64,000 nucleotides of DNA from positions 5,642,001 to 5,706,000 of the forward strand of contig OU612069.1 in NCBI GenBank assembly GCA_914767715.1, read 5' to 3'. Positions 4,626-53,502 of the stretch are shown piece after piece. The stretch is from Membranipora membranacea (lineage: Eukaryota > Bryozoa > Gymnolaemata > Cheilostomatida > Membraniporidae). The position numbers and the translations under genes are program-made. Numbering within the stretch: the stretch's first letter is position 1; every line of letters begins with the position of its first letter. Below the pieces are notes generated by a model. It was not told the DNA's origin and made no database searches. It saw only the letters and a list, made by a program, of their open reading frames with translations.

Positions 4626-4629
4626 CCTT

Positions 4630-5429: not shown

Positions 5430-5613
5430 AACATGTCAATAGGTAAGGTACTTGAATATGATTGTAAAGATAAATAGCCAACGAGGCTGCTAAAAAGAAA
5501 AACATTGTTTTGACTGTGATTGGTAATGAAACTCTGAACTTATAAGCTTGAGCGTCCAAATCAAAGTAAAGGATTCCACATTTGATGCTCTTGTTACATT
5601 ACTGGATCTACAT

Positions 5614-5741
5614 TTAGAGCTGGAGTCAATGCGGTGTCGGAAGCTCTTAGGCTTGACATAAGAAATCAATTGCCTAATGAATCGGTTTCAAATTATAATG
5701 GAGCTTTATCAAAACTCAGCATGAATGCAAAGTTTGCTACA
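5614..5741 (+). CDS. Isolated exon-like ORF before a GTAACT donor
   Basis: The acceptor-like CTACATTTAG precedes an open stretch AGVNAVSEALRLDIRNQL and then SVSNYNGALSKLSMNAKFAT, followed by GTAACT. Codon composition looks coding. Family unknown; it may belong with the exon-like ORF about 180 bp upstream or be part of a decayed element. Confidence 0.25.
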
Positions 5742-5818
5742 GGTAACTCTTCATACATCGTCTTCGTATTAAACTGATTTGTGGCCTGCATGTAAGCAAA
5801 AGTGAAATTTGTGAGGCA

Positions 5819-5845
5819 TTGATTGATTGATTGATTGATTGATTT
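5819..5845. repeat. (GATT)n microsatellite at retrotransposon 3' end
   Basis: Six to seven copies of GATT/ATTG. It lies just beyond the 3' UTR of the minus-strand non-LTR element, where CR1/L2-like and related elements often end in short microsatellite tails. Confidence 0.7.
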
Positions 5846-9587: not shown

Positions 9588-9670
9588 TTATGTATGTGTG
9601 ACAGTCCACTTATAATACTCAGCAGACTGGACTACACGCCCCCCTCGTTTTATCTCTCTGACTTCTTTCT
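9588..9670 (-). CDS. Coding exon 13: basic C-terminal tail and stop
   Basis: 83 nt after the strong acceptor TTTTTTTCTACTTGTAG. It encodes KEVREIKRGGRVVQSAEYYK and WTVTHT, then TAA (9590-9588). The tail has no known domain. The phase fits exon 12, and the total CDS length becomes a multiple of three. Confidence 0.75.
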
Positions 9671-12600
9671 CTACAAGTAGAAAAAAATCTGATAACAACA
9701 GATAGAGATTATTAAATTAGCAGATCAATTCTACTGACAGCATTCAGGATTATTTTGGATATAATTATATACATTATGAAGTTATCGTCAGATGCCCTGC
9801 TCATCCATAATAATATCTTTAACTTGCCTCATTTATAGTACTAGTACATGAGTCAAAAATACAGTATCATATAAGCATCCAAATAAGAGGAGTGAGCTTA
9901 CCTAGAAGTGGTTCAATCCTAGTAACCACCTGGTTTGGCACATTCGCAAACATCTCAGGTGAGTTCTGAATTTGGACTCCAGGTAGCAGATACAGTTTTC
10001 TCAGATTAGTGAATGTGCAGACAGTTTTAGGCATCTGAGAGACATAAGAGGCAGCAGTGGGAGCTGCAGCAGCACCTCTGTTCAGGTTCTGATCTGTTCT
10101 CTCCACTCCATATCTTGTCACTGATTCTCTTACCTGCAATTTTGATGGTTGAAAATGGTAATGCATCATCTGTAAGAGTTTGAATGACTTCATGATTGGT
10201 TAAATGATTTCAGAGAGTGTAAGGTTGAATTATATTTATGAAATATTAGAGGTGAGAATGACTCCGATCAAGAGATTTACTTCAATTGATGCATCAGTAG
10301 TTTAGAGTAAGTTGGGTTAGTCAGTTGCATTTATAGGCACTTAACCGTTTGTGTCCATGAAGAAATATCTCAATATAACAAGGAACTTATGCAAGACTTA
10401 CTATTTCAGCCAGAGATACAACATCATGCCTATGTCCCAGGGTGTATAAGGTCGCCACCAAAGCCCTGATGAAGGGTGATCCAACGCCAGGGTTCCTTGG
10501 TGCAGCAAAAGCTACAATAGAAATTACTCTATGATACATAACAAATCCATTGACCCATTAATACCTAAGGTGGCTGTAGTCCTGCTGTAATTTTATTATG
10601 GAAGTATTCTTGAAATAATCTTCAAATGATAATACGAGGGATAGTCCCCTCTAGTGCGATGGAATCATGACTGTACTGTACTGACTGTACTGTACAACCC
10701 CAAACAACTGCCACTTCTAAACTTATATTGCTGTTTAAGCTGAATTTTTCTGCTGTTGAATACTCACAATCAAAGCTGGACTGCATAATGATCATATCTG
10801 ATACAGATATGTCTTGTGTATCATTGTCCACTTCAAAGTCATTAGAACTCGGCATTGTCACAACTTGAGTGCTGCTATCAGTTTGGGGAGCTCTAACAGC
10901 TGCTGTTCCAGTAGTGAGGTCGTCTCTCAACATTTCCCGATTACCTTTTTGAAAAAACGCGGATATGATCATCAGCTGCAAGACTTAGTAGATATGCTAT
11001 AAGCCTGTACTGTATTGTATCAATTTCTTGATTTTATAAGCTAACTGTCTTGTTGTTTATGTCCTTTCAGTTTCAACTTCAGACATAGTGTTATAAGCTA
11101 CATTCTACTTAAAAACAAAATCTGGTGCTGCTGCCTGATATTATTTCTCATTCAAATTTAACAAAACTTACTGCCAGCACATGCTTGTATGATCACAATC
11201 TTTGGTCGGCCTCTCATCACCGAGAAGTTCTTAGGAGAGAGTAGATTGTAAATATCCGTTAGTCTGATGAAGACTCTGTCAGAGCCAATAATACAGCCCT
11301 CGTCTCCATGACTGGTCAGAACGAGTACAAACGCCCCCATATGCTTGTGTACTGATTGACCGCCTTGATCTGTTAACTGTGTCTCGCAGTGTATGGCTTC
11401 GATGATTTCCTAGTAAAAAAATACTAACGTAAGTCCTCCATAAAAGGTTTAGTTTCTCAAATTATTGACTGAGATAGTTTACTGCATTGATGTCATAGAG
11501 CAGTTACCCTGGAGCGTGGTCTGATATTGTCAAGGAGGGATGATTCTAAAGCCTGGTCATTCGTAACAATCAATCGTACATGTAAACAATTCAAAGATTG
11601 TAAATGTTTAGCTTACCCTTGCAGTGTAGGTTTTGTGTTCACCTACAGTAACAAACCCTAGTTTGTCAAGCATACACTTGATATTCTGATAGTCATGTTC
11701 AGAACCTCTCCTTGTCTGGTTGTAGTCGTTAGAGACAATCAGAGCACGTCCTCGGCATTCTGTCATCTGGTAAACAGTCTGAAAATAATCAGAAAATGAA
11801 GCCTTGATGATATTTGAACTATTTTGTTGCCTCGTAAGCTTTAAGATCTGAGAATTGTACCAAGGAACTTCCGAACCACAGCTGTAATTATTCACTTCAT
11901 AGACACAGCCTTCTAAGTTTGTGTGAAGACATGAAAATATCGATCAAAATCATAACAAAGTAGCAGCTTTATAAACCTGGCTTTCAGGGATTAAACTCTG
12001 ATCTGCTTGTTGTGGTTCCATATCTATCTGGGGTTGTCTTCTTTTCATGATCTCCACTACATCCTGAACTTCGGACATCTGGATCTCTGGTATGCTCTGG
12101 CCAGGATCATCTGCTGTGAGAACAGGAGGAGGGTCAGGTTTTACATAGTGCTTATTAAAATTTGAATTTTCTCTGCCTGTTTTCTTTTCACCGTAGAAAC
12201 CAAGTTTCGCATGATAAATTCAGTAAAAGACAGCTGTTGACTGACCTGATCCCGCAGTTGTCTCCTCCCTTCTTATGTAGTCATCAAGAATTCTGACTCC
12301 CTCCTCACTGATCTTAAGACCTGTTTGAAACAACAGCAAAAATGGCAAGGTTAGCACCCCTATTGAAACAATCACTTGGTTAACATGCAATCCCGAAAAT
12401 TAATGCTACAAATGGTAACAAATGAATTAATCGTATCTGCTGAGGCAGATAATGATATTTTTCCATGAACTTACATGGATATCTGAGAGGTAGCGGGACA
12501 CGCCTCCTCCCATCGTTGGTGTCACATGGACAAGTCTCCTCTCCAGTGTAGGTGGTATGACGGGGCTCTGGCAGTTTGTATCCGACACTCCTGTTGAACC

Positions 12601-15600
12601 ACTCAGGATTGACAAATGTTGCTGGTGATAACTGTTTGGTCAGTAGGCAATGAGAGCAGTAGAAGACATGGTCATATCGAACTCCTTTCCACACGGAATC
12701 CAATTCAGATGTAAGCCGCTTCATTGTTTCTAGTTGGGTCTTCCAAGCATCGCTGATAAGCCTGGCCGGTGTTTGCGTGATGAGTGTCACTTGTTTTTCT
12801 TTCTCATTATGCAATAGATACCGCAAGACTCCGCTCATATCTTGCACACTCGCTCCATTTATACCAGCTTCAGGTGTGTTGAATGGATTGACACATATGT
12901 CTAGAAATCCTGCAGTGATTACATGATATACGTATTGCGGCACGGTGAGGCCGTTTAGATACAGATCGACTCTCAGCTGAAGGTGATTTGTGCCTTCTGT
13001 TGGGTTTGGTATGTTCTTAGTGCTGAAGTAGGGAACGATGAACTTCTCACTGCCATCACTTTCTTTAGGTCCAATGATCAGGTGAAATGTTTTCAGCAGC
13101 GTGATACCAACATCAACAGGTAGTTCCGTTTCATTGCTGAGCAGATTGTGTAGTAATGCAGCTCTTATGATTCCTGTGGCTTTGAAATCATTGACCATGC
13201 TGACATACTCTCTTCTGTCCACAGGTCTTCCCTTGTATCTGTAGGGTCTAAATTTGGTTATGCGATGTTCCCATGCTTGAGAATCTGCATGATCGTAAAG
13301 TGTCCTTATGACATCAGCAAGAACTGAAGGGCGATGGAATAAATAGTCACTCAGCTTCTCAACGTCCTGAAACCACATTATTCTTCCTGCTTCTTTGACG
13401 TACTGCAAAGCATGCTCACTGTTCTTACTGAAACCTTGTATGAAGTCAGTAACAGAAACATAAGGCTTTTGCTCTTCAGCAGTAAGCTTATTCAGCACTT
13501 CATACCAACTACCGGGTATATCAGTGATCAGCTTAGCCCCTGCTTCCTTTAGTGCGCTCTTTAATGATTTGATATCCATCTTGCTCGATGAAGCCGAGAG
13601 CTCTAGTATTGTTGTGATCAGGGGCTGTGCTGTGTCGATGAAAGATGTCATTGAAAAAAATGAGCTGTCAGGCATAGCAACACCCTCTTCTGATTGAATT
13701 ACATCTAAACGCAGCTTCTCTGTTGCTGATAAAAGCTGTTTCTTCCTCAGTTTGAGGGTCTCGTTGCTAAGCAGATCACCATGAGTCAGTACGAGCACTG
13801 GTCTTCCTAGATTTGGTTGTGATGTATATAGGTGCGCTATCCACTGGAAGCATACATCCTGAGCTGCAGCCTCTACTCCATGTGAAGTTACTAAACTGTC
13901 AAACTCTGCTATATCTACCACTAGAAGTGGTACAGATTGTACTTTGGCGTTCACTTGATAGGCAAGGTGATACACCTCATGCCCTCCCAAATCAGTGAAT
14001 ACCAACTTCAATTTCTCATCAATGTCAGCCTCGCATACATTGAAGACACGTGTTGCCTCATCAAGCTTGATGTCGATATCCGAACGGGTTGTCAGCACAC
14101 GCTGATCCTTCTGTACGCTCCTCACAATGCTTGTTTTTCCTGCTTTAGTCTTGCCTATGACTGTTACCGGAATGAGCCTGAAAATGTTATCTTTTTCAGC
14201 ATGGAGATCCTGCAGATACTTCATTACAGCTTTTAAACCCCGTTTGCAGACAGCATAGGGAGGAGATACTAGTGCTTCGCATCGGTTAAATTTGAAGGAC
14301 GTTAGCGTGCTGATATTGAAGATACTTTCAGGTATAGAGGAGAGTGATCTGTTTCCGCTAATATGAAGTCTTTCCAGTTTGGTGAGTTGCCCCAGGCTGC
14401 ATGAAAAAATAAAAATATATTTACTTTCAATCATAATGAGCGTTGCCGACATGGGGATGAACTTTCAATCATGACTAGACAAGTGCAAGGTACAATGAGT
14501 GGTATGGTGGGTTGGCCAATGTTGCACAAGAAGATACAAATGTGTTTAAATTGATGCCATATTGCATAAACAACTTCCCAGCAGTGTCGAACAGGTCCTG
14601 GCATATTTGAAATTTGGGGAAATTGGCGCAGTCATTGCAGCCTCGCCCTCAAGGCACACACTATTTCACCGCCACGATGTGGTGAGTGACAAACACTTGT
14701 GATTTTATCCAAAATTTTTTAAGCCAACTAATGACTTACTACTAAATTGTGAGTTTGTTACTTGCAACAGGGCCAAATGATATCCAGCATCACAACGCCC
14801 GCTATCCCAGCAAATTAAAAAAAAAGTTTACTTTTATTTATTTTTCAATGTAATGCAATGTAATGTAGAATAATAAGTCATTCTTTCGTTTGCTATTTAT
14901 CACTTCTGTTGTGACAGCTCATCCCCACCCTATTAATTTGATCAAAATTGTAGCGCTGATTGTTTTTCATTCTTTTGCTAATCTGCTAACCAATTTCAAC
15001 ATAAGACCACCTCCAGTATGCAGTGAATTTATTACTTTGTGAGGCCTTATGCTGTTCTCTAGGCTTTGGGAGTCAAGGTTCAACCCTGAACCCCGTATCG
15101 GGGGGTTGGGGGGGGGGGGCCTACAGCGCTTTTCCCAAAGCTGAGAATAATTGATATGACACTGCGCTGCACAGGATACTCAATGATGGCAGGTTCACAT
15201 TTATCATTGAACTTGGGAAATTTTAAGTTCGATAGGCCACATAATCGTGAAGAAACCGTCATTTCGCTCTATTTTTCAGTAACAAAGTTTTCTTATTCAA
15301 TGGTAATCGGCTACATTTAGTTATTTTTTACAGGATAATACACCCTTGGCATCGTAACTTTTAACATAATATTACTTGATAGAGTTAAAAGTCTCAGATT
15401 ATCACTATCAAAAAACTTGTCTTCTTGAGTTACTGTACAAATTGTTTTATTTTAAATTGAGGAGGACTAATAAATTTGCTAAATATAGTCTCATCATAAT
15501 GCATTTCCGTTCTGGTCGATTTTCTTGCTAATTGCCAAAAATAGATATAATTAATTAAATTAATATTATGCCTTATTGATAACTTCCCTCTTACTAGGAA

Positions 15601-27600: not shown

Positions 27601-30600
27601 ATGCAACGTCAATCGAACCAAGTCACAATTTATTGAAGCTGTCTTTTAGAAACGAGTCTTTGATTTAGTCAATCACTTATTTTCTCTTGACATACTCATT
27701 TAAGGTCAAAATACTGCAGCCTGTCTAGCAATTCTGGATAAGGAGGGCAAGTTGTTATACTGTGGAGAACATTTGAATACTAGATGCATAAAAATAACAA
27801 AAAGAGAAGGCAATGTTAATTATAAATGTCCAGTTATGTCTATTCACTTTACATGAGAGCTCCAATTCAGAGTCGATCAATGAAACTTAATAGATGATCA
27901 ATTTTGAATTGTGTGCATGATAAATATTGCTAATATTGTTAAATTGTTAATAGTTGATCGTAATATAATTGCATATGTGTGTGCTTTCATTTTCCTTACG
28001 CCTAATTAAATCGATTATGCGACAACTAAATTATTTGCACTTAAAACCGGATTTGCCAATTTTAAGTTTTCCTCAAAGAAAAGTTATGTAATGGGGTCAG
28101 ACCAATGTTTTCCTGACCTTTTTTTTATCGTCGCTATAGGGAAGTGCATCCCGCTTACTCAAAGGTACAACTGTTGCCAGCATCTGTCGCACATGTTTGT
28201 TTCAGATATTAATAGGTATTTCTAGTGATGCAAGTTACGTGACTCGGATGTGAAACTCAATCTATAATTGCTGACTAAAAATATAAGCTTATTTTACAAA
28301 TATAAATGCTGAAAAAACTAACATTGCTATTGATGCTAGTTATGCAATTCAATTTAACAACTTTCACAGTGACATTTCACTCCATCCGTAAAATATGGAA
28401 CATTCAGTAGACTTGTATAATTGTTATATATTGATACTCATTGCATCAAAGACAGATAATATGATAGTGTCTTATTTTATTTTGATTTGATTTTCTCAAA
28501 CTAATTTTTCAGAGCATGTCCTTCATGAAGTTCAAACAAATGTTAATATTTAGGAGAAATTTTAGGTAAAAATATAAATTTAAAATCCCATGTCATTGAG
28601 ACAAAACCCACTCATAGCAAACTTTAAGACAAATCATGTTATTCAAAGGTAACACACTAATTGCTTACTAACTTATGACTCACACCACTGACTACTCTCA
28701 TTGAAATACTGGACTGTCCTTCTTCATTGTATATTAGCCATCCTACTCCGTTTGTAATTTGTTGCTCCCGTCTTACTCAACTCCAACAATATTTACCGTC
28801 ACATGAAACAAGTACTCAGTGCTCATTTGATTGTGCATTTGTTACCGTGTTTTCGAGAGTACCCAGCCCCCTTCACCGTGCTCGGCTACCGGCGCCTTGT
28901 TGTGGTTGATTTTAGTGTATGGGCAAGGACTTGCTAACCTGATCTGGTCTCGGGTGCCGTGTGGCCTGTTGTCTGATAATCCACTGGATACCCCTACAGT
29001 GTTGTCCCAGATTACTAACAAATGTTGTCTTTCAATTTTTCCTTATCATCTCCCTTATGTGTTAATAACCCACTGCTGAAAACCCTACGATTGTGAGTGT
29101 GACGCCAAAACCCCCCTTGACTTGATCCCTTGCGAGTCGTGGCTGTGAAGCTATACAAAAAACCTAACTGTTACATCTCCGATGACTGATATACTGTTAT
29201 TTGCATCCAGATAATCAAGTTTCCCTCTGTTATCACTATACAGCGTATCGCCCTTACTCCGACGGCGATCAACCTATCGGAAGAATCGGAAGAATTTTAC
29301 ATACAGTCTGATATAGTACTGTTGCGAGCATCTGACTCACCTGTTTGGAAGGCTGGTCAAGTCACAGCACTTAGCCTTTATAGTCTTCAACGATTGAATT
29401 TGCCCCAATTCAGCAGGTAATGTGTGTAGGCCATAATTATGACTGACATCTAACAACTCCAGTCCTTGCAGTTTGGAGATGCTGTTGAGGAGAAATGATG
29501 TAATGTTAAAATACCATGCAATACAGCTTGTCAGTTCATGGAGCAAAAACAATTGAGCGACAAACTTGATTAATGAGAGAAAGTTTTAGATTGATCAATT
29601 AACTAGGAAGAATTGTACCTATCAGATTTTGATTTTGGTGGCTGAATAGATTTGGGTTTCCTTTTAATGCAAGTATCGGAGGAGTCAATAGTAACCATAA
29701 ATAAATTGAGTTGCAATCTGACGTTTCAGATATGAATAAGTATTTATAGTGATGCAAGTTATGCGATTCAAATTATCAAGTGACGTTTCACCCCATCCAT
29801 AAAAAACTGACTAGCATTTGCTTCTGACTGGTATAATTGTAATAAATTGTTACTCAATGCATCAAAGACAGATGTTATGACCTCGTCCTATTTCGATATC
29901 GATTTGATTTTCTCAAACTTATTTTTCAGGGCATGTCCTTCAAGCAGGCTGACAAACTAAATCATAAAGCAATTTGAGAAAAAATGAGATGAGATAAATG
30001 TATGAACTTTAAATCCAATGTAAATGAGATTGAACGAAACCGAACTCAATCAGAGCAAACTTTGAGAGAAATCGTAAGTTTTGAAATGGAACGTTAGCTG
30101 CAGTCGTGTAGGCAGGGGTAAATAAAACCAAAGATTGAATATGCCACTCCATTTCCTTATTGCTCTAATGAATATATTTAAAGTAGTCCTAAGACTCAAT
30201 AACAGATGCTTAAACATCATAAATCTAAATTGACATAAACCTGAGACAAGACAAAGGCATATCAATTCCAACATCAAGTGGTACCATTATCTATACCTCT
30301 CAACAGTTTTAATATGTATATAAGTGATGATGAAATAATAGTTGAATTAAGGTTGTATCCCTAAACATGTTGATTCATAATTCTTAGGTGGACCTGTGGC
30401 TATTATTTGAGATTACTGTAATGTTGTAAGTCCGGAAACCTAATTCAGCCACTTGAAGGCAAGAATTTGGCTTTTATTCAAATCGTGTAGCTTGCTGTAA
30501 GGTCATAACCTTCGTGTGTGATGCTACAATGGTTATGATAATTGTGTATTCATTTTTCGTTTCTTATTAGGATATATTTTCTTATTTATGTGTTCGGCAG

Positions 30601-36600: not shown

Positions 36601-39600
36601 ACATGTATTCATAAGTTTATGTCTATTTATCTATCTCTATGCGGCTTCTTACCTTCACGTTTATATACATGTAGATAAGATACCACAGTGACGCCATGCG
36701 GCGAGCACTTACCTCCACGTTTATATATATGAAGATGAGTTCTCTTTGCATGGTGACACATGATAATATGTAGTTATGTTATAAATCAAAACAGATTATT
36801 GTTTTGTTTTTCTAGATGAATTTGTCTGGCAGATGGCTACTGACGCAGCTCGTCAGGTACCTGACGGTACTGCTCAGCATGGTGTAAATACAACAAAACT
36901 TCCAGCAGGATGTAGTGAGATAGATGCATTCTCTGTAATTTTCGATCGTACCTTTTACACTACCGTCAAATCTGAGACCAACCGCTACGCTCGAAGTAAC
37001 ATGTCTGACCCACAGGCCGAATCATGGAAAACTGTAACACTGTCATGCATGTACCGATTCTTCGCCATAATCCTTCACATGTGTATCGTGAAAAAAACAA
37101 CCATAGCAGACTATTTCTCCACAGATCCTGTACTGTATAGTAGCTTCGCTAGTTCAATTGGCATGGACCGCAACCGATTCCAGCAGATACTTAGGTACTT
37201 GCACCTGAATGACAATGCCAATCACGTACCCCGTGATCAGGATGGCCATGACCCACTTTTCAAAGTACGGCTGATATTTGACAGTCTGTTAGCTAAGTTT
37301 TGAGAGTTGTATACTCCTTGGTCAAATCTAACTGTCGATGAAGCGATGTGCCCATATGTGGTAGGGTAGGATTTCGGGTTTACATGAAAAATAACCAAAC
37401 AAGTATGGAATGCGAGTAGAGTGTGTATGCGAATCTAACAGTGGCTATGTATGTCAGATGGAAGTCTACACAGCCACAGGAGACAACACCGTAAATGGCC
37501 TGGTCACCCATATACTCAATCCCTTTGAAGATAAAAATACAGAGTTTACATGGACAGACGCTACTCATCTCCTATTCTATTCCGTGAGTTACCGACTAAA
37601 AGCATTTATGCAGTTGGTACTTGTATGTTAATTCGTTGAAATTTGCCAGGTGACTTTGCACAAAATCTGCAGAAGGGTGAGAGGGTAGCTAGGCAGTGTG
37701 GTGATATTCGGGCTACTAAGTGGAAGGACAAGAGAGACGTAATAACTTTGTCCACCGTAGATGCTGACGTAATGATCGACACAACAAATCCCAGGTCTAG
37801 ATTTCATGATCACCAGGTAATGAAGCCGCAGACTGTCCTAACTTACAACAGCAATAAAGCTGGTGTTGACAAGCACGACCAGATGGCGAGCTACTACCCC
37901 ATGGGCCGAAAGTCGCTCAAATGGGAGAAGAAGCTCTTCTTCTGGCTGTACGTCATGGGAGTTGTAAACTCATTCAAAATCTACAAATTCTCAAATCCAA
38001 CATCCAAACTCAGACTATCACAATACATCATAACATTGGCCAAAGAACTATTGAAAGAAGCTGGTATCGAAGAGCGAAATCAACCCCCGAATGCTGCAGC
38101 TGAACCACGCAGGCATGTAACTGGCAATCACTTTCCCGTCTCTATACCACCCAACCCTGTAAAGCAGAACCCCACTCGACTTTGTGTGAACTGTTCATCC
38201 AAGCCCGGCCCTAATGGCAAGAAACCTAGACGTCAATCAAGACACATATGTCTGGAATGACAGGTAGCTCTTTGCGTGTTATGCTTTCATCCATATCACC
38301 GCCCTCATAGCAGACACTCTTTAGGTAATCTTTGACCTTTGCTGACATTCATGTATATATTATGCTTAGCTTCATTGATATTACATTTCAGAACTTGTCA
38401 TGCATGGTATATAACATATTTTATTATACAATCATGTTTCAATATATTACTTCATGGCTTTTGTCTTTTGAAATGCTCGTAAACTTTCCACAAACTTCTC
38501 ATACATCGAATATAGATTTTACTAACAGTCTGACGCTCTTTTATACCTGTATTTCTTTTGTTTTTTACTGTCTCTCACAATTAAAAAGAAATAGAGATGT
38601 CACCACAGCATTTTTGATCCCTCCTGACAAAAAACCAGTGATAATCTTTGGTTCAGACTTGAGATTTGGCATGAATTCAAGCATACACGACCAGTCAATC
38701 AGGGAAAAAAAATTCTCTTCTCAGCTGATTACGGCCTCCACTTTACCCCTAACCTAGCATGCTATATATTTCTCTAACCCTAGAAAATTTGTGCTCATTG
38801 GAACGATCATGAGCTGGGCATTCCGATGATATGCATGATAACAGGGCTTCTACCAGCTGTGTTTCGGTTATGCTGCATTGAAAATCCCTGAAAGCGCCCG
38901 GTCATAGCATGTATCGTTATATAATAGGCGGTCGGTAGTCAAAGTGTTAATCATGTATTTGTAAGTAATCTGAGTAGGTTTATGATTATGAAGTAATTTT
39001 GTCTCAGAATGACAGGATTTCTATACCGCTTAGTAGCCTGAATCTTATTATATTGCATACCTACATACATTCATGAGTGGGCATCTATGTAAAATTCATG
39101 TTTCATGGTGTGTCTGAATGTCTGAGGTAATATAGACAGCTTGTCCTTTCCTGTGTAAGGGATATAGTATTGAACAATAGCAGGTATAAACAAATAGAAG
39201 TGACAATTGTCACTAGCCAGTGTTTTTTTTCTAATATTTGATACAGCCCTATACATAATAACTATCAATTGATTGGATTCTTTAGCATTTTGGGACGATA
39301 ACTATTCCTTGTTCGCTGTGAACAAAATTTGAAGTGTTGGTAGCCTAGGAGAACAAATCTAGATGAACTTGGTGATGTCTCAAGAGAAAATTAACACTTT
39401 TTGTTTGACCATAGGAACAGTAAGAATCGCAACGCAACGCAATGCATCGCAACTGGATATATATTATTTGCAGATGACACTAATAATTTATGCTCAGACC
39501 CACCAACTTCAAAATAACATCTTTGTAATGATAAAGAGTGCAGGTCCGCAGCAAATCACTTCAGACTAAACACCAACAAAACTTTTAAGCTCGTTTCAAA

Positions 39601-45600: not shown

Positions 45601-48600
45601 CCAAGTGGAAGATTTAAAATATCACAAGCATGCTATCCAAATATTGGTGTCGCTCATTGCTGTTCTAACATCCGCTTGTTTCAATGGATCTTTTTCTACT
45701 CTTTCTTGTTTGAATTTCATACAGTTTGTTAATGATGTCACAGTTATCTTTTCTTGTGAGAATGAAAAATTGATTGAAATTTGAATTTTTCCATATTCTG
45801 CTAGCCATCCTTAAGATTCAGATCACTTTAACTGTTTTATTACAGTACCTCAACCCTTACAGTGTTACGATGTTGTGATGGGATATCTTTCAACGCAATT
45901 CCTGAATACATTTAGTTAGGCTTGAGAGTAAAATTGGCTTACTATTTAATATCAATTTTTAGCTTGGTATAATATGTGTAGTTGTATATCTTTGCCCAAT
46001 TTTGTTTTTGGCAGCGTGTTATATTTTGTAATTTATTGAGGTGAGTTTGTGCGTGAGAAATTTCAATAATTTTTTTGATATTTGAACTGCATATCGAGTT
46101 ACCGGCTTTTTAGCATAATTATATTTGTGTTTTCCTTGGCTTTTATGTTTTGAACATCATGACATCAATGACAAACCATAGTTGTCATGACGTCAACTAC
46201 TCCTCATTTGCGTTGCTGGTACTGTGCAGGAACTTATCTACTAATTCAAAGGTGAAACAGGATTGGGGTGCTCACCACCACTAAGCCCTGTTATATCCCA
46301 TGTCACTTATAACTATGAGATAATGGCCTGTCACGTCTCTAAATGCTGAGACATGATCAGTATTGTATTGTAGGGTGAAATGAGGAAAGTTAAATTATTC
46401 TCGCAATATTATCTACTTAAAAACATTTAAAATTTAGATAGTACAGTTGAACTTTGTATGGTTGAGGTAAACAGTAGCTGTTTGGTGTCAGTAATAGGGC
46501 ACCAATTTGAGCACAATGATAAACACTTATCGGCTTTTCTAGGCTTTTAATATAGATATCTGCGATGAGATCAAACAGCAAATAAAATGAAATGGAACAG
46601 CTGTTACAACTACTACTAGTACTACTAGTACAGGAAGTGCGGATATGACTTACCACTCTGGTAGACAAGTGATGCCGCAATGGTACACGGTCAAGCGCTT
46701 TAGAGATTTCAGATCTCCTAACTCTGTGGGTAATGTCCGTAGCTTCACGCTATCCACTAAGTATAACACCTCAAGTTCTTTCAGACTGCAGACACTGTGG
46801 TGGAAAAAAACATGTGAAAAACCATAAATATAATACCATTGTAGGAAATAATGCGCAATAAAAAGCGACAAGAGAACTTCCAACAAAGTCAGAGTTTGAT
46901 CATACTAGTATCATTGATATTTCAAACTAGAATATAGTAACCTTTGATAGTGAATCATTTGTGACTCTAGACATAATAATATAAACATAATACATTGCTG
47001 TATGTAATTTCATGACTCGTGTAACTACACTCTGATATTAAGTTATATAAAGATAAACAAAGATAAGTAGTCTGTTTGCAAAGAGTGAATGGGCTAGGCG
47101 AAACAATTCATTTCATTGGCATCTATATCATTACTTGAGAAATTGTTTTTCAAAAGTGCCGAACAAGAAACCAAAAAAATCGACTGAGTGTTTATAGATT
47201 ATTATTGTAGCATGTAATATTTAATTATGGCTTTCTTGAAAAAAGAAATGCTGCCTCACATTCTTAAAACGATGCCTCCAGGTACCTCGCTTTGCAGATG
47301 CTACCTACCCTGGATAAAGTATATGCTATTTTCTTATTGAGTTCTGTGCAATAGTGCTAGGAAATAATAAACAATATATTATTGGCAAAGATTAAATTCA
47401 TCTAGATAATTATCGAGCTTTGGAGTTATCATACTGAAATATTATATTTTGGAAAAACTTAGGGCTTTTTTAAAGGTTACAAACTTGCGAAGGAGCAAAC
47501 ACGATTGGGCAATACATTGTAAAGATGAGAAAAGGTTTTCTTAAAAACCCATACATAGTTTCTCTGACATTATATTTTGCAGTCTAAATAGGTTTGGATG
47601 TCCTTGTGATGCATGTATTACAGGAGGTAACATTTACCATAAATAAATTGACTCGATCTAATTTTTTTTGGATATAATGGTTTGTAGGTATTTCTTGTGA
47701 TGCAGGTGTTGCAAAACAGATATGGAAGTTAATATATGAATGCTCATTTAAACCCACAACTTTGCTTGCTTGAGGACCAATCGGTGTTGTTGAAATGTAG
47801 CCTACTTCCTATTTATGTTGATCATTCTCAAAGTAGATTTATATTACCAGACTCAAAAACTCTTTGAATATTTGAATGCTTCATTCTTGCGAGCGATCCC
47901 ATTTGAAGTTTTGGGTTATGCAAATTCAGGAACGCATTCAAATGTCATCAGAGCAAAAAAATTTACCAAGCTTCAGACTATGGTATTAGCTGCTTGCCGT
48001 TGAGTGTTAAGAAAAGTGTTGAAAGTGAAAATGAATGTCGATATGGTTTTTGAATGTAGGTCATGTTACTATTGTTGGCTTGGGTATGAATTGGAAGGAG
48101 AAAATATAATCCACATGGATACCCATAATTTTCAGAGATGCTCATCATTTCATAGTGAGATTGACACACTGTCTCGATTCGCAAATTCTTCATTCCAATA
48201 AATTTTATAAAAAAAGTATGAAATGCGATCCACTACTGGGTACTTTACCACGAGCTGGCATAAGCCAGCAGTAGGCAGGGGATGAGATGTGCTATATCCC
48301 CTTCGCTATTCGTTATGGTGATGGATATAGTTATACAAAATTTACAAAGCAGTGTGAATGGGATTTAGGTTGCGAATAACCAAATACTTCTGCCAATGAG
48401 GGCATTTATGGACAAGACTCAGGTTGTGGCTTTAATCTATAGACTGTATGAGTTGATAAAGAGATGTGTGATGCGATTCAAACCTTTCACAAGACAGTCC
48501 CTGCCTCTGTGTCAAGGTAAACCTGTACCGAATACCTACTTCATAGAAACAGAGCTTATTTTCACGCATGCAGAGCAGCCTGCGAAGAGCTTAGGAAGAT

Positions 48601-51600
48601 GGTATAGTTTTCTGATCACAGACAGGTTTCGCTGTCACATTATTATCCTGCACACAGCATAGCATTGCTAGGCAGACCATCAATTCAAACATAAAATCAA
48701 CAAAAACTTAGCCTTAGTCGGACTCAAAGCCCTAAATAATTATTCAACAAGTTATATTTGATCAAAATTTTGCATTTTCATCCTTGTTTTGTCCTCAGGT
48801 CAGTTTACGATTCAGTGTTTGATTTTTAAAATAATGTTGGCTAACTCTTCTGATTTGTAAAAGGTTGAATGAGCAAACATTATTTCTTATTATTTCTAAC
48901 GGTTTCTAGAGAAACCACCTATAATAAAAATAATTATGACGTGTATGTATATAATGACAGAACACATCATTTAAAATCATTGCCATTATTTGCTCTTACA
49001 ATAAACCATGTCAACATTTTTTTTCAAAAAAACCTGGACCTTTAATTGATGCAACTACAGAGCCTGTGTAGAAATAAGTATTAATTTCATATTCAAATGA
49101 CCATAATGAAAAAAAGTCAATGTTATGCATTATTGGTAACCTTTATCCAAACTGCGAAACATTCAGCTCCCTGTACTCCTTGTCAGAAACGCTGCCAAGG
49201 GAGCAGACCTCAAGTTCAAAACAGCACCTATAAAGGAGCAGCCACATGCCTTTGGAAAACTCTTGTGGAAGATCCAAAATATCAAAGGCATGCCATCCAA
49301 CGAGTTTACAGGCCAGGTAGAATATTGGTTTCTCACTCATAGCTGTCCGAACATTTACTTGTTTCAATGTAATTTTCCTACTCTATCTTGTTTGAATTTA
49401 CCCACGGGTTGTCAATGATATCGCAAATGTCAGTTCAGTTCAGTGAAACTATGAGAAACGCAAAGTTTTGTGGTTGTATCGGGAGTGTATTGCAGTTGAA
49501 AAATTGAAATTCATAAGTTTAGCTAATCTAGGGTGACTCATAATATTTATTACCTATTTATTTGTTTAAAGAGGTTTTCTGGAAAGTTTACAGATAACAG
49601 AGTAGTTAAAAAGTAACTTGTTGACCTCTAACACACAACTTAATAAAAAAAAAGGGGTTATACACAAATAAATGATGATGTTCTAGTAATAGGAAAGTAA
49701 GCTGTATATGGCATTATAGAAAAAGAATATTATATATATATTATCATAATTATTGTACTTGTAATGATTATTAATAATGTATTCCTTAAAAGATAGTGGG
49801 TTGTCAGCCGTTTTGCATTTCAATCTGAAATTGTGCAGTAGATTTAAAAGAGCTATTGTGCCAAAATGTGTCCTGAAGGAAGGCTTTATTACTGAAAATT
49901 TACGTCTCAGGGAGTGTTGGCGTTTATTAAACTTTTGCACCAGGTGAATAATGCGCTTTGATGCTTTATTTGTGGCTACTTTCTTATGTGTAAATTTGTG
50001 AAATAGGTTATTTCTTCTACATTTTAGGGTGAGTAAGTTTTAGAGTGATCTACCAGTTGTGACAGAGAACTTTTTAGGTGTAGATATTATTTTGATTCTA
50101 ATTTCTTTATTCTGGACTCTTTCAATTGTGTCTGCAGTATTCTAAGATAGATCCAACAAGAAATTTGTAAGTCATGTGTCATATATTTTTTTCAGAATTG
50201 AAAGTTGGTATACTACTCTGTTCGCTTTAGTTGCCGTTTCATTGACATGGATATGGAAAGATAAATCAGTATCCGGGTAACCCCCAGTTCATTGATAGAG
50301 AGTTTTGTCTCACTTTTTGAGGTTTGAAAACTATTTGGTATAAGTTGTTAATGTTTCTGTTGGAAAATATGCAGAATTGTGTTTTTTCAATGTAGAGTCT
50401 CAGTAAGTGGCTATGATACCAATCTGATGCTGTCTGTAGCAGAGTATTGGACTCCGCTAGTACTTCATTTATGCTTGTGGCTGTTCAGTAGATTAGTGTA
50501 TCACCTGCATAAGTGAATTTTCAAATGTTGATAGAAATCCATTGATAGCTAAGTTAAAGAGGATAGGGCCCAGAATGGAACCTTGAGGTACCCCACAGGT
50601 GATTGCTTATGAACTAGATCGTGACAACCCTAGTTTCATTACTTGATATTCATTTTGAAGATAGATCAAAGTAGTGCTGTTGCAGAACTAAAGTACTGTT
50701 TTTTTTCCAATATGTATAGAAGAAGTCTGTGATTGATTGTATCTAACGCTATTTTCGGACATCTAAGGATGAGGCTCCAATGTAACAAGGAGTGGGTTGG
50801 TCAAGTTTAATTTCCCATTGTTGCAGCACAGATAGCAACATTTGCTCGGTTGAATGATTCTGAAAAAATCCGAATTGTAAGTCTCAGAATAAGTTGTGTT
50901 TCTTTATGTAAGACATCATTTGATTTTTCATGTCAAGTTCAAACATCTTTGACAGGATTGGAAGCGAGGATATTGGTCGATAGTTTGATGGGTCACATTT
51001 GTAACCCTTTTTATGAACTGTCGTGACAGGGGAAGGTTTCAAGCGGTCAGGGAAGATTTACCGGAATAAAAGGATAGCGGGTAGGCAATTAAGTAAACTA
51101 TTATTTTATCATTGCTGGTATGCCACTTAAACCACCACTCTTGTCTGCGTTAAGTGAAACTGATATAATATAGGCTTCAGTATAAAAGATGATAAATCTC
51201 AAGTCCATGTTTGGACAATCAATTTAGTATATCAAACACATAGAATCAATGATGATCATGACAAAAAGTCCTTTTAATGGTTTTGGTTGAGCCAGTCTTA
51301 TCAGTCTCTGAATTTGTAGATGTATAATGTATGCTTGCTGGTCAGAGACGTATTATAAACTCAGCCTATGCACCAGAAGGTTCAATCAATCTGATTTTCA
51401 TCATGTTCTCAGTTTTGCAATCATTTTGGTCAAGTTTTGGATCCTCAAACAACTTAAATTTAGCAAATAATAATATTGTGACAGTGAGTGAGCAGAAGCT
51501 TCACATTGTGACAATTAACTTCCAGAGCCATCCTTAAGCTTCAGATAACTATTACTGTTTTGTAAGATACCTGAAGCCCTCACAGTGTTACAATGATAAG

Positions 51601-53502
51601 TGATGGGGTATCAAGTTATCAAGAAATTTCCAACGCGATGCCTGATTACATTTAATGGGGACTGAGAGTAAAGAGATTGAAATAAAAAGCTTACTCTTAA
51701 TATCAAATTTTAGCTTGGTATATATTACATATATATATATATTAAGCACTCAAACGGTGGCGGGTTGCTGGTAGAGGCATTTCATTCTCAACCACTTTCT
51801 GAAGAGAAAGTGGTTGATAATGAAATGCCTCTTCCAGCATCCCGTCATCGTTTGAGCGCATAAACTAACCAGTATCCTGATATTGCGCAGCACAACTGAA
51901 GAATACAATTAATGATGACCTTTAATTCACACAACTTATCATAAATTTATCATAACTTTGTTTATAATTGTATGACCCTGTAGCTAAACACTACTCTTAG
52001 GTTTTATGGGCCACGGGGTCAAATTTCCAATGTTCAGAGACTAGTTGGAAAATTTGGATATCAAAGTTATATTATTAATAGCATGATCAGCGGTATTCTA
52101 TACAGAGCGAGAATGACATAAAGCTAACTGGTTAGTCAATGTCTACACGATAGTGATCAACTGCTCTTGAACAAGATAATGGCAGTGGCATTAAACTACT
52201 GGGTGAAGAGCAGGATAAATTTGTATTCATCATAATTTGTTTGGTTATTTTGTTAGATTTATGCACTGGTGTTGGCATGATGCTCTGTAAAATTGACAGA
52301 AACGCATCGCTGGGTTGTGTTTTTATGATTTCATATTTCGGAGTATTTCATTTGTGATCACCTAAAAATTGCCTAATGTAAACTATAAAGCAACATCATC
52401 ATTAATGTTGTTATATCAACCTCACAAAAACATTTATGAAGATGATTGTATATTGACTAAAAAAACTCACATCTACTGCTTGTTGTAAATCTCATTACAG
52501 TACAGGCAAAACAGATTGGATTCTATCAAATTTTAGAATAACCCGCCCTTCCTACACATGAAGATGAACCTGAGAAGCATTTAAAACATTTTCACCTGGA
52601 TTGTCAAAAAAAGTGTCAATTCAGTTAGAAACATTTTATCTTGGAAATCGAAATCTCCTCTGATTTATCAGCAATAGGCTATGATTGTTGGTCTAGTTTC
52701 ACACTATTGAAGAATACATTGGGCATCAGCTCAACCTGCATGATAATTTTTCGTAGTACAGTGTGTAGGCACTCAGTTATGCATAAAACACAACATTGGG
52801 TTATACAAACTCAATCGTATATGGTTGAACATTTACCTCTGTAGCTGATCTACATGTGGTGTGTACTCGAGCCAGAGCTCTTTCAGGTGAGGAGCTATCT
52901 CATGTAGATAAGGAGGGATATTACCTCTGATCATCATATGTGTGATATGGAGACATTTAGCTTCTGCTGTAAGTTCTGATAATGTCAGAGATCTTAGTGA
53001 GTCCTCATCACAGTAAGTTATTTTTTCTATCTCAGGTTCTCCAGCATGTCGGTACCATACATCATACCCTAGACAACAAGTAAATAATGAAAACAATGCA
53101 ACGCAAATATCAAATGATTAAGGAGGGAGCGATTTTGTTAGTCCCTCAATTGAAATTATTTGGTTGTGGGACGGTGTACCTGATCCTCATAAACCTCACC
53201 CCATGATTGAGCGCCAGTCAAATAAAAATCTTAAAGATAAGAAATACAAAACAGCAACACTAATAGTGATAAAGGATTTAATTGCTTAATCAAATCCAGA
53301 TGAATTACACAACACTGCACATTATATTCTCATTTGTTTGCCATTAAATGCATTTGCTAGAAGTAAACTTTGGGCCAAAACTCCTACCTTGGGTCTCATC
53401 AGCTCTTGTGCGGCTAACTCTTGGAATATTTAGAGGAGCTCTGAGCCTAGGTTCTTTATCCTGTGGCCTGCTCTTAGGGGGCTTACTTTTAGTGTTTCCC
53501 AT
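9588..53502 (-). CDS. LRR-Roc-COR GTPase fused to a caspase (13 coding exons)
   Basis: Exons in transcript order: 53502-53388, 53068-52837, 46794-46654, 29481-29341, 14396-12475, 12320-12246, 12176-11977, 11778-11617, 11409-11172, 10944-10768, 10511-10402, 10133-9902, 9670-9588. Every junction has AG and GT and matching phase; the total of 3,828 nt gives 1,275 aa plus stop. Seen: myristoylation signal (1-7), LRRs (about 60-255), Roc GTPase with P-loop at 291-299, DLGG at 345-348 and THGD at 414-417, COR (about 503-771), a CxxC patch (790-793), a Pro/Gln-rich linker, then caspase p20 (943-1075) with His1030 and Cys1073 and p10 (about 1125-1223), and a basic tail. Known: Roc-COR proteins are GTP-dependent dimer switches, and caspases cleave after Asp. 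Inferred: ligand or GTP state drives caspase dimerisation at a membrane. Further LRR exons may be hidden in the long introns. Confidence 0.88.
9902..10133 (-). CDS. Coding exon 12: end of caspase p10
   Basis: 232 nt, phase 0 to 1, acceptor AAAATTGCAG, donor CTAG|GTAAGC. It encodes VRESVTRYGVER, an Ala-rich insert, then QMPKTVCTFTNLRKLYLLPG, the usual end of the p10 domain (TLRKKLYFFPG type). The remaining residues form a tail. Confidence 0.85.
10402..10511 (-). CDS. Coding exon 11: caspase p10 core
   Basis: 110 nt, phase 1 to 0, donor ATA|GTAAGT. It encodes FAAPRNPGVGSPFIRALVAT, then LGHRHDVVSLAEI. It aligns without gaps to the caspase-3 SWRNSKDGSWFIQSL region: Arg1140 equals the P1-binding Arg207, while the Trp before it is Pro here and the GSWF Trp is also Pro. 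The S2/S4 pockets should thus differ from vertebrate caspases. Confidence 0.87.
10768..10944 (-). CDS. Coding exon 10: interdomain linker and p10 start
   Basis: 177 nt, phase 1 to 1, donor GAT-T|GTGAGT. It encodes a Thr/Ser-rich linker, then NDFEVDNDTQDISVSD (candidate activation sites Asp1115, Asp1117, Asp1120) and MIIMQSSFD, the first p10 strand. The linker between Cys and p10 strand is about 50 residues, long enough for processing. Confidence 0.85.
11172..11409 (-). CDS. Coding exon 9: caspase catalytic His and Cys
   Basis: 238 nt, phase 0 to 1, acceptor TTTTTTTACTAG, donor A|GTAAGT. It encodes VLVLTSHGDEG (catalytic His1030) and KIVIIQACAG (catalytic Cys1073). The family pentapeptide is QACxG; Ala replaces the more usual Arg at the fourth place. 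Gln1071, which lines the P1 pocket, is kept. The spacing of His to Cys (43 residues) is caspase-like. The active site therefore looks competent. Confidence 0.92.
11617..11778 (-). CDS. Coding exon 8: caspase p20, first half
   Basis: 162 nt, phase 0, acceptor CTGATTATTTTCAG, donor AGG|GTAAGC. It encodes RGRALIVSNDYNQTRRGSEH, then DYQNIKCMLDKLGF. This is the classic caspase N-terminal strand and the RxGS/T-xxxD motif. Arg965 sits where caspase-3 Arg64 binds the P1 Asp, and helix 1 continues to KLGF as in animal caspases. Confidence 0.9.
11977..12176 (-). CDS. Coding exon 7: Pro/Gln-rich linker before caspase
   Basis: 200 nt, phase 1 to 0, acceptor AAGAAAACAG. The donor CCAG|GTTTAT is weak, so this exon end is the least certain in the model. 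It encodes KPDPPPVLTADDPGQSIPE, then MSEVQDVVEIMKRRQ and LIPESQ. It is a flexible linker, and ADD could be a caspase self-cleavage site. Confidence 0.66.
12246..12320 (-). CDS. Coding exon 6: helical linker
   Basis: 75 nt, phase 1 to 1, acceptor TTTCAAACAG, donor CAG|GTCAGT. It encodes LKISEEGVRILDDYIRREE, a short charged helix after COR. The frame fits only when both neighbours are joined. Confidence 0.72.
12475..14396 (-). CDS. Coding exon 5: last LRR, Roc GTPase and COR
   Basis: A single 1,922-nt exon (acceptor TTTTTTCATGCAG, donor CAT|GTAAGT, phase 2 to 1) holds the end of the LRRs (LGQLTKLERLHISGN), the whole Roc and the whole COR. Roc: P-loop GKTKAGKTS, switch II DLGGHEVYH, G4-like THGD. 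COR: IPGSWYEVLNKL, EAGRIMWF, RPSVLADVI. After COR comes YCSHCLL and a CPCD patch, as in MFHAS1-like invertebrate ROCO proteins. All catalytic GTPase motifs are intact. Packing these domains in one exon contrasts with the finely split caspase part and suggests that the caspase exons joined a pre-existing ROCO gene. Confidence 0.92.
14397..18904. other. Intron 4, 3' part: diverged repeats
   Basis: Holds a diverged copy (about 14690-15220) of the segment found at 26.4 kb and 34.7 kb, a G-run at 15100-15119, segments rich in ATAACATT (16450-16640) resembling 25140-25400, and an inverted 250-bp copy (17325-17560) of the unit at 19445-19730. No exon was recognised. Confidence 0.6.
14690..15220. repeat. 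Diverged copy of intron repeat family R4
   Basis: Shared blocks with 26400-26830 and 34730-35110 include a GTGAGTT...GGGCCAA segment, TGTTGTGACAGCTCATSCCC and a G-rich run. All copies have the same order and orientation. Confidence 0.6.
18905..22170. repeat. Long intron repeat R1, copy A
   Basis: About 3.2 kb that recurs collinearly at 31325-34430 with point changes and indels. Shared landmarks are AATAATGAATAAATCTGCC, AATTGATTGAGTTATGAACA, GCTTGCTGTATGGTCAT and TTTTGTATGCAGTACATGC. No intact ORF is found. It may be a large non-autonomous element or a segmental duplication within the gene. Confidence 0.8.
22385..23340. repeat. Tandem pair, unit about 489 bp
   Basis: Two head-to-tail copies share TCCAAAYTRTCCACCTGTGTCC, CTGGACGG and GAGGGGCAACAAAAAATTACA landmarks. 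A third partial copy is at about 27010-27410. Confidence 0.78.
22860..24560. repeat. Intron repeat R3, copy A
   Basis: About 1.7 kb collinear with 27000-28640. Shared landmarks are GCAATGGCTGGTT, AACAGCAGACTGATCAGTTT, ATGAGAGCTCCAATTC and CAAGCATCTGACTCACA. No ORF. Confidence 0.77.
25400..26830. repeat. Intron repeats R2 and R4
   Basis: 25400-26060 matches 29312-29346 plus 29720-30130. 26090-26830 matches 34420-35110, ending in a G-run (26701-26723) like the one at 15100. Same orientation throughout. Confidence 0.7.
27000..28640. repeat. Intron repeat R3, copy B
   Basis: Same order and strand as 22860-24560, about 4.1 kb away. The similarity stops near 28640, where an unrelated, more GC-rich segment begins. 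Confidence 0.77.
28640..29311. other. Unique GC-richer insertion next to LRR exon 4
   Basis: Interrupts the surrounding repeat families and has higher GC than its flanks (for example 28855-28985). The short ORFs here have no motif. It could be a solo LTR or other insertion, but no terminal repeats were confirmed. Confidence 0.35.
29341..29481 (-). CDS. Coding exon 4: second LRR cassette, same size and phase
   Basis: 141 nt, phase 2 in and out, acceptor CTCCTCAACAG, donor AG|GTGAGT. It encodes ISKLQGLELLDVSHNYGLHT, then LPAELGQIQSLKTIKAKCC and LTSLPN. Length, phase and position of the junction within the repeat (just after LPx) equal those of the preceding cassette, so the two are duplicates. 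The donor region is itself part of a repeat family present elsewhere in the next intron. Confidence 0.87.
29720..30870. repeat. Partial copies of R1 and R2
   Basis: 29720-30130 matches 25500-26000 (R2: a TAGTGATGCAAGTT block through CGTGTAGGCAG). 30130-30870 matches 20560-21310 and 33060-33760 (R1). The join of two families here shows nested or recombined copies. Confidence 0.7.
31325..34430. repeat. Long intron repeat R1, copy B
   Basis: Collinear with 18905-21830. It lies in intron 3, while copy A is in intron 4, so the repeat flanks the LRR exon at 29341 on both sides. Several indels of 50-300 bp separate the copies. Confidence 0.8.
35111..35396. repeat. Copy of segment at 30880-31100
   Basis: Shares AATAATACTGATAA, CAGCATATCAACA and GCTGGCYGGTGGCT landmarks with 30880-31100. 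It immediately precedes the acidic exon of the piggyBac-like gene. Confidence 0.55.
35397..38260 (+). pseudogene. piggyBac-like transposase gene, broken
   Basis: Plus-strand exon-like pieces with consistent phase-1 junctions: 35397-35514 (acidic, DDDFDEIINDSDSEVD), 35900-36070 (acidic, ends SSEEEEP), 36333-36497 (RGG-rich, in-frame TGA at 36386), then the transposase from 36816. The body has SEIDAFSVIF, a TGA at 37301, then ELYTPWSNLTVDEAM (first Asp, about 37337), a frame change, YMDRRYSSPILF (second Asp, about 37553), another stop, then KWKDKRDV, NKAGVDKHDQM (third Asp, about 37868), LKWEKKLFFW, and a Cys-poor tail where piggyBac has a Cys-rich finger (CVNCSSKPG). The DDD triad is thus traceable but the copy is dead. 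It lies antisense in intron 3 of the ROCO-caspase gene. No TTAA-flanked ends were found. Confidence 0.88.
38261..39425. other. Intronic, nothing recognised
   Basis: AT-rich sequence after the piggyBac pseudogene. A 141-codon ORF at 38332 has hydrophobic low-complexity composition and no motif. No repeats shared with other parts of the window were noticed. Confidence 0.35.
39430..39720 (+). pseudogene. Reverse transcriptase remnant (FADDT motif)
   Basis: A plus-strand stretch reads LFADDTNNLCSDPPTSK, then, after stops and shifts, NHFRLNTNKTFKLVS. This is the spacing of RT motif C followed by the NxxKT motif of non-LTR elements. Only this fragment remains. Confidence 0.45.
39825..40480. repeat. 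650-bp duplicate, copy A
   Basis: Collinear with 48065-48730, sharing GAATTGGAAGGAG, GGATTTAGGTTGCGAATAACC, GAGTTGATAAAGAGATG and CACAGACAGGTTTCGCTGTC. A shorter third copy of the end lies at about 43380-43500. The ORF fragments are not convincing. Confidence 0.78.
40500..43600. other. Intronic, mostly unique AT-rich
   Basis: Apart from the block at 43160-43500 shared with 48660-48850, no repeat, RNA or coding exon was recognised. Minus-strand ORFs at 42297 and 42763 have no LRR or other motif. Confidence 0.4.
43620..44010 (+). pseudogene. Coiled-coil ORF relic
   Basis: The ORF 43620-43820 encodes a heptad-like helix (LQQILDKMNENKRSADNQHK, then SKINTRLNAIESD). Past two stops and a shift the same character goes on (DVTDVKARFKEL; then QLQAHNEDKSDRALAVIH and TVDKINERCK). 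It looks like a decayed coiled-coil protein such as a retroelement ORF1, but no diagnostic motif is present. Confidence 0.42.
44011..46653. other. Intronic; block shared with 49.1 and 51.5 kb
   Basis: 45470-45600 matches 49105-49230, and 45790-45990 matches 51525-51725, in the same order. This suggests that one longer unit was split by later insertions. Nothing coding was found. Confidence 0.5.
46654..46794 (-). CDS. Coding exon 3: two-repeat LRR cassette
   Basis: 141 nt, phase 2 in and out, acceptor TTTTTTTCCACCACAG, donor TG|GTAAGT. It encodes LKELEVLYLVDSVKLRTLP, then ELGDLKSLKRLTVYHCGITC and LPE: two about 23-residue LRRs of the LxxLxxLxL...LP type found in ROCO and bacterial-style LRR proteins. 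The frame joins exons 2 and 4 exactly. Confidence 0.85.
47600..47745. repeat. Intron block upstream of LRR exon 3, related to that upstream of exon 4
   Basis: Shares GGAGG...CATAAATAAATTGA and GTATTT(N)TAGTGATGCA-type landmarks with 29670-29770. Position relative to the LRR exon (about 0.8 kb versus 0.2 kb upstream) differs by insertions. Confidence 0.5.
48065..48730. repeat. 650-bp duplicate, copy B
   Basis: Partner of 39825-40480 in the same orientation. Here it is followed by a block (48720-48850) also found at 43160-43300, so the two families travel together. Confidence 0.77.
49690..51160 (-). pseudogene. Non-LTR retrotransposon RT, decayed
   Basis: Minus-strand pieces in order: SGGLSGIPA (about 51145), NYRPISSLPILSKMFE (about 50985), CGVPQGSILGPILFN (about 50590), FTYAGDTL (about 50510; the usual YADD is YAGD here), DLSFHIHVNETATKANRV (about 50235), and a C-terminal ORF at 49683-49940 (QKFNKRQHSLRRKFSV, LSFKEYIINN). 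Several stops and shifts separate them. It is a jockey/CR1-like ORF2 lacking the endonuclease. Divergence from the copy at 6-7 kb shows a different family. Confidence 0.85.
51746..51859. repeat. 114-bp hairpin with 4-nt loop
   Basis: The arms GCACTCAAACG...CCACTTTCT and AGAAAGTGG...CGTTTGAGCGC pair almost completely around GAAG. It lies next to a (TA)n tract. It could be a tiny foldback element; the stem (about 55 bp) is longer than normal animal pre-miRNAs. Confidence 0.75.
51860..52836. other. Intron 2 end, nothing recognised
   Basis: AT-rich sequence between the hairpin and coding exon 2. No additional LRR exon was found on the minus strand. Confidence 0.4.
52837..53068 (-). CDS. Coding exon 2: LRR N-terminal cap
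   Basis: Acceptor TTGTTGTCTAG, 232 nt, phase 1 in and phase 2 out (AG|GTAAAT). It encodes GYDVWYRHAGEPE, then leucine-patterned sequence (SLRSLTLSEL; HLKELWLEYTPHVDQLQ). It reads as the capping and first irregular leucine-rich repeats. It lies 319 bp downstream of exon 1. Confidence 0.8.
53388..53502 (-). CDS. Coding exon 1: N-myristoylation signal, basic leader
   Basis: The first in-frame ATG (53500-53502) after an acceptor (TTTTAGCTTGTAG) gives MGNTKSKPPKSRP. Gly2, Ser6 and Lys7 fit the MGxxxS/T consensus of N-myristoyltransferase, and the following Lys/Arg residues would add membrane binding. The exon encodes 38 residues and ends in phase 1 at AAG|GTAGGA. The open frame upstream has no ATG, only TTG, so this start is preferred. 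The 5' UTR exon was not located. Confidence 0.78.

Follow-up and report, generated by a model that had tools for sequence, protein, structure and literature searches.

The window analysed here, a stretch of 64,000 nucleotides at C5:5642001-5706000 of the Membranipora membranacea genome (339 Mb in 18 contigs, which suggest about 11 chromosomes), carries on its minus strand a gene running from 53502 to 9588 (Table 1). Its 13 exons have GT-AG borders and compatible phases, and together they give a predicted product of 1,254 aa that contains an LRR region, a Roc GTPase, a COR region and a caspase. The original prediction likewise had 13 phase-consistent exons, but a protein of 1,275 aa, a length that our model does not reproduce.

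Table 1. Exons of the LRR-Roc-COR-caspase gene and other features of the window
Feature	Position in window	Strand	Content
Exon 1	53388..53502	-	Start codon, MGNTKSK N terminus; based on open frame and donor only
Exon 2	52837..53068	-	N-terminal module (YDVWYRHAGE...) leading into the LRRs
Exon 3	46654..46794	-	Two LRRs, phase 2-2
Exon 4	29341..29481	-	Two LRRs, phase 2-2; recognised through similarity to the exon of a paralogue
Exon 5	12475..14396	-	Last LRRs, Roc GTPase (GKTKAGKT, DLGG, THGD), COR, FYCSHC region
Exon 6	12246..12320	-	Linker
Exon 7	11977..12113	-	Linker; weak donor gtttat
Exon 8	11617..11778	-	Start of caspase p20 (RGRALI..., TRRGSEHD)
Exon 9	11172..11409	-	Caspase p20 with putative catalytic His (SHGDEG) and Cys (QACAG)
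Exon 10	10768..10944	-	Asp-rich p20/p10 linker, start of p10
Exon 11	10402..10511	-	p10 (FAAPRNPGVGSPFI)
Exon 12	9902..10133	-	End of p10, C-terminal tail
Exon 13	9588..9670	-	Tail, stop codon
Transposase	36785..38260	+	PF13843 in two frames, within intron 3; presumably piggyBac-type
Reverse transcriptase fragment	6247..6876	-	
Reverse transcriptase, weaker match	near 51 kb		Within intron 2
Open frame	62516..64000	-	494 aa, running off the window end; zinc-finger-like CRLCG and CNTCG by eye; no Pfam match at E 0.01

The exon coordinates give introns 2, 3 and 4 lengths of 6.0, 17.2 and 14.9 kb, and an automatic exon search between exons 2 and 3 returned weak candidates only. Part of the analyses used a 12-exon version of the gene without one LRR exon (29481-29341); reading through any of its 11 introns meets a stop codon. 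We take the N-terminal MGNTKSK to resemble an N-myristoylation site, and no similar start was recognised in the 1.17 kb upstream of exon 2 in the paralogue L022. Contamination was rejected as an origin of the gene, given that the window sits within a 29.96-Mb contig, and so was a pseudogene, given that internal stops are absent from exons 5 to 13 in 13 copies. Eight of these copies can be read to a stop codon, and the other five extend beyond the fetched stretch.

In the 12-exon protein, Pfam matches LRR_14 (E 1.5e-10) and Roc (3.9e-6) above their cut-offs. COR-A falls below its cut-off (E 3.3e-5, 24.3 bits versus the required 35.3; 1.5e-4 in the 12-exon protein), and COR-B was not matched in this protein. 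Across the whole genome the COR-A profile finds nine places, two of them above cut-off, indicating that the Pfam model barely sees this family. Within an alignment of eight Roc-COR members, Roc was matched in all eight, as was COR-A at E 0.1 or better (best, 2.5e-6). The P-loop GKTKAGKT, the DxxG motif (DLGG) and the THxD motif (THGD) read alike in copy L012 and in the window exon. A Foldseek search with a predicted model of exon 5 returned LRRK1, LRRK2 or C. tepidum Roco entries as its ten best matches, with low TM-scores (0.24 to 0.31, query normalised) from a mediocre model (mean pLDDT, 63.8). By its domain order the predicted protein is thus a ROCO protein, with a P-loop-bearing Roc domain and COR directly after it. 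It lacks the hallmark of NLR/STAND proteins, as neither NACHT nor NB-ARC is among the 14 Pfam families matched at E 1; a weak nSTAND1 match (0.038) occurs in one of the eight aligned members.

The C-terminal part matches Pfam Peptidase_C14 at 1.3e-27 over profile positions 1 to 227 of 233, above cut-off, in the 12-exon protein. Its closest sequence match in the PDB is CED-3 (3.4e-13), spanning both p20 and p10, and its SHG and QAC align with the CED-3 His-Cys dyad. The Arg, Gln and Arg that correspond in the alignment to TRNGT, QAC and WRN of CED-3 presumably form an Asp-binding pocket, and Asp occurs in the p20/p10 linker of the paralogues compared. From these sequence features it is a caspase of the C14A type, with the His-Cys dyad, p20 and p10 on one chain with an Asp-containing linker, and the pocket residues. 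The catalytic His and Cys are present in all 11 distinct loci with a full motif region. The active-site motif here is QACAG rather than QACRG, and QACAG, QACSG and QSCSG all occur across the family; one caspase match with no known ROCO link (L001) is without the catalytic Cys. A search with the caspase region gave no match at E 0.001 among 2,244 candidates. Overall, the domain is very likely to be an active caspase, with a presumed preference for Asp.

Do the Roc-COR and caspase parts belong to one gene? The junctions within the LRRs and within the caspase are supported by domain continuity, so the critical ones are those joining exons 5, 6, 7 and 8. Exon 5 ends in a good donor, and exons 6 and 7 are open and supply the frame needed by exon 8. 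Read in frame, the two exons score 0.458 and 0.266 bits per codon as coding sequence, above the 99% level for open pieces of intron (0.240 and 0.098, respectively), but their off-frame readings also look coding-like (0.304 and 0.257). Among 13 copies on C5, exon 6 has no nucleotide difference and a single protein variant, and exon 7 has two protein variants with a dN/dS of 0.25. Another point against a single gene is that, among six distant paralogues, similarity to linker exon 7 was found only in L006, with no clear linker exon in the other five. Neither AATAAA nor ATTAAA occurs between the Roc-COR and caspase exons (exons 5 to 8); the first AATAAA after the stop codon lies at 8824, and another is inside intron 10. 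A phase-1 GT donor closes the Roc-COR exon in 26 of the 26 distinct loci where it is readable, the window included (L021 and L027, whose alignments fell short of the donor, stand outside this count), and the caspase intron borders are mostly kept. All seven database homologues (33 to 53% identity) have Pro-Cys at the place where exon 5 ends, and in all seven the frame stops no more than about 70 residues on, which by eye looks like entry into an intron.

The window gene is one member of a large family. The genome contains at least 145 caspase matches (515 candidates), at least 69 Roc-COR matches (69 of 419 candidates scored) and at least 149 matches to exon 2 (150 of 191 candidates scored). 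Longer stretches were fetched at 20 caspase matches, and in 19 of them Roc-COR lies upstream on the same strand, at a spacing of 633 to 1,060 bp; 12 of the 19 are 93 to 97% copies on C5, and the other seven have Roc-COR identities of 27 to 43%. The exception, L023, has the caspase exons and no Roc-COR match, and is counted against the linkage. Eight further loci are short, and Roc-COR was seen in three of them (L003 at 58%, L004, which overlaps L028, and L006); the other five span just 1.5 kb on each side of the caspase. Seen from the opposite end, 25 of the 69 Roc-COR matches listed are followed within 8 kb by a same-strand caspase match (at 722 to 1,722 bp), compared with 0.18 expected under uniform placement, and none of the 69 has one upstream or on the opposite strand. 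Since the same genome keeps Roc-COR upstream of the caspase, the doubt that neighboring genes had been misjoined is largely removed.

The order extends to the 5' part of the gene. All 11 units of a cluster on C3 have exon 2, Roc-COR and caspase in this order, and the same order repeats, with gaps, on C5. For 56 of the 69 Roc-COR matches and 76 of the 145 caspase matches listed, an exon-2 match in the same orientation lies upstream within 100 kb, versus 0 and 3, respectively, in an opposite-strand control. Conversely, 123 of the 149 exon-2 matches listed have Roc-COR or caspase downstream in the same orientation at a distance of up to 100 kb, and 26 have no such partner. Between 4.1 and 7.7 Mb of C5, 13 ROCO-caspase genes of the window type alternate along 3.5 Mb with five Roc-COR genes that are more distant (46 to 47% identity), and the distance from exon 2 to Roc-COR is long in this region, about 40 to 180 kb.

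The 44 Roc-COR loci with no Pfam caspase match nearby were considered as ROCOs with other effectors. This was rejected for the five that were fetched, four of which (L031, L032, L034 and L035) pass the Pfam caspase cut-off. The fifth, L033, has no caspase match at E 0.01 and is caspase-like by eye, with MSHG and IQACQ exons. These five of the 44 loci carry a second, more divergent type of caspase, with SHG or THG and IQACQ exons and a p10 motif of RPHTLLLMS or alike; L031 is also one of the five distant Roc-COR genes on C5.

With the phase-1 donor kept at every readable locus, an interval that is free of canonical polyadenylation signals, linker exons that are open, phase matched and conserved in 13 copies, and an adjacency that holds at 27 to 43% identity in seven stretches, it is most unlikely that the caspase is a separate gene just downstream of an LRR-Roc-COR gene, the two being duplicated as a block and possibly forming a working pair. 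The points in favor of such a pair are that the single transcript is a prediction from genomic sequence, that exon 5 is readable for 31 residues beyond its donor to a stop, that the linker exons diverge fast, and that in one of the 20 stretches, L023, the caspase has no Roc-COR partner. If intron 5 (154 bp) were retained, it would add those same 31 residues before the stop, and the frame in the seven database homologues likewise ends soon after the donor, as it might if one gene made two products, the spliced fusion and a short LRR-Roc-COR form that damps it. A stop soon past a donor is expected by chance, however, and we regard this arrangement as unlikely. The claim of the original prediction that LRR, Roc, COR and a full caspase lie in one gene is therefore upheld by the splice phases, the Pfam matches, the linkage in 19 of 20 stretches and the donors in 26 of 26 loci, and the gene would very probably be expressed as a single polypeptide from a single mRNA.

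How has selection acted on the different parts? Values of dN/dS were pooled over pairs of the 13 near-identical C5 copies with their kinship ignored and with rough Roc and COR limits that we set ourselves; within exon 5 they are 2.89 for the LRR end (45 codons), 1.73 for the next 27 codons, 0.36 for Roc, 0.43 for COR and 0.69 after COR. For exons 8 to 13, the values are 0.29, 0.36, 0.73, 0.28, 0.77 and 0.30. Nonsynonymous and synonymous changes number 32 and 4 in the LRR end versus 70 and 38 elsewhere in the exon (P = 0.006), and all 13 copies have distinct LRR variants. In two repeats of the LRR end, all 10 positions on the solvent-facing concave side, which we assigned by the LxxLxLxxN pattern, are variable, versus 6 of the 35 others (P = 2.5e-6). 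The rates at the LRR end compared with those of Roc and COR, together with the variability of the solvent side, fit a diversifying receptor with a conserved effector. Between the paralogue L020 and the window, an LRR exon is 67% identical and the Roc-COR exon 94%. For exon 2, 12 C5 copies assigned by position give a dN of 0.170, a dS of 0.161 and a ratio of 1.05. This dS exceeds those of exons 5 and 7 to 13 (0.009 to 0.051), suggesting a younger or homogenised 3' half and a 5' part that is older or less homogenised; taken alone, this contrast is not selection.

The suggestion in the original prediction that the LRR acts as a sensor thus finds backing in behavior like that of a ligand-binding surface, and we consider it rather likely that the LRR senses non-self or danger. 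Could it read self markers instead? A diversifying LRR surface and many clustered copies would fit allorecognition or cell identity as well as detection of microbes or damage, but a caspase effector suits the sensing of damage or infection at least equally, and we find the reading of self improbable. The effector itself might be a noncatalytic signalling or decoy module, as the variants of the Cys motif and the very divergent second caspase type in sister genes could suggest; with Cys and His in all 11 distinct loci compared, retention of p10 and the pocket Arg where matched, and a dN/dS of 0.36 in exon 9, this is very unlikely. The preferred reading, which we hold to be probable, is that the product of the gene is an intracellular receptor-protease, one of a large and still diversifying family, acting as sensor, switch and executioner. 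Counted against it are the weak donor of exon 7, the QACAG motif, the ratios of 0.73 and 0.77 in exons 10 and 12, and the high dS and modest dN/dS of exon 2.

In such a receptor-protease, a ligand would bind on the concave side of the LRRs and alter the nucleotide state and shape of Roc-COR, and this change would bring caspase domains together or free them. The caspases would then activate by proximity and cleave themselves at Asp in the p20/p10 linker, and perhaps also at Asp in the linker between COR and caspase, with cell death or inflammation as the putative outcome. Sensor, switch and executioner would sit on one chain, and the CARD or death-domain adaptors on which NLRs rely would not be needed. 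Initiator caspases are activated by proximity; a change in the shape or oligomeric state of Roc-COR would therefore be a natural trigger, and activation through Roc-COR rearrangement is a slightly favored possibility. The activating step proposed originally, COR dimerisation, is doubtful and may be the wrong way round, because the C. tepidum Roco is, according to the available text of PMC11052575, active as a GTP-bound monomer.

NLRs and Apaf-1 combine sensor repeats and an NTP switch, in the form of a NACHT/NB-ARC ATPase, with a separate caspase output. The gene described here resembles them in sensor repeats, NTP switch and caspase output and differs in its Ras-like GTPase and in having the caspase on the same chain. 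The LRR-Roc-COR-caspase architecture is not unique in life, since LRR-AP-GTPase-COR proteins of bacteria, with effectors at the C terminus that include a caspase, are described in the accessible part of PMC8195603. The two share the domain order of LRR, Roc-type GTPase, COR and caspase, as well as fast-evolving LRRs and several paralogues per genome; in contrast to the bacterial systems, the bryozoan gene is of animal type and contains introns, its caspase is CED-3-like and includes a p10, and its family is large and clustered.

Among animals, ROCO proteins with immunity-type effectors are represented in the portions of the literature at hand by actiniarian (sea anemone) NG1, an LRR-Roc/Ras-(weak COR)-TIR protein (PMC5094078), and by Aplysia TIR proteins with ROCO domains (PMC9334734), both of which have TIR in place of the protease. 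Trichoplax has an expanded set of at least 17 ROCO genes with cell-death and other domains (CARD, death, TIR, TPR, LRR), differing from the present family in that these are adaptor domains; in the available text of PMC4104024 the word caspase occurs once, within the name of CARD. The "LRRs-caspase" hybrid genes of amphioxus (PMC2575513) likewise join LRRs to a caspase with QACXG, where X is R, Q or G and not A as here, and they are set apart by their description, which in the available text mentions neither Roc nor GTPase. LRRK1/2, MFHAS1 and DAPK1 share the Roc-COR core and have, as far as PMC6337361 is accessible, a kinase, a death domain or nothing where the caspase stands here. Up to 40 ROCO domain combinations are counted in animals in PMC11378527; caspase is absent from its available running text, and the figure that itemises the combinations may include one. 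No animal ROCO-caspase was found in the open-licence literature searched, including the available parts of PMC6321704 (on placozoan immunity), PMC7159879 and PMC3501461. The novelty originally put forward for the architecture therefore holds for animals in this literature and fails for life as a whole: the bacterial form is already known, and what would be new is an LRR-Roc-COR-caspase in an animal, as a major receptor family by scale.

The many similar genes in this genome may thus form a family of one-piece danger sensors. Tentatively, and with somewhat less than even confidence, we propose that one more class of intracellular immune receptors, on the scale of NLRs, has arisen in an animal lineage, with well over 100 ROCO-caspases whose Ras-like switch, in place of a NACHT ATPase, would directly drive the attached caspase. 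The family would amount to one-chain inflammasomes of two caspase types with a fast-changing sensor. If true, a Roc-COR switch can be coupled directly to a caspase in animals as it is in bacteria, and this architecture can grow to the size of an NLR repertoire. The family would also offer a compact system for asking how the nucleotide state of Roc-COR drives an effector, a question shared with LRRK2 and DAPK1, and protease cleavage would give an easy read-out. One further locus, L030 (C11:3043500-3053400), has on its plus strand one uninterrupted frame of 2,442 aa (2-7330) in which several dozen LRRs (uncounted) precede Roc-COR; the frame ends at the same kind of donor, and a divergent caspase lies downstream.
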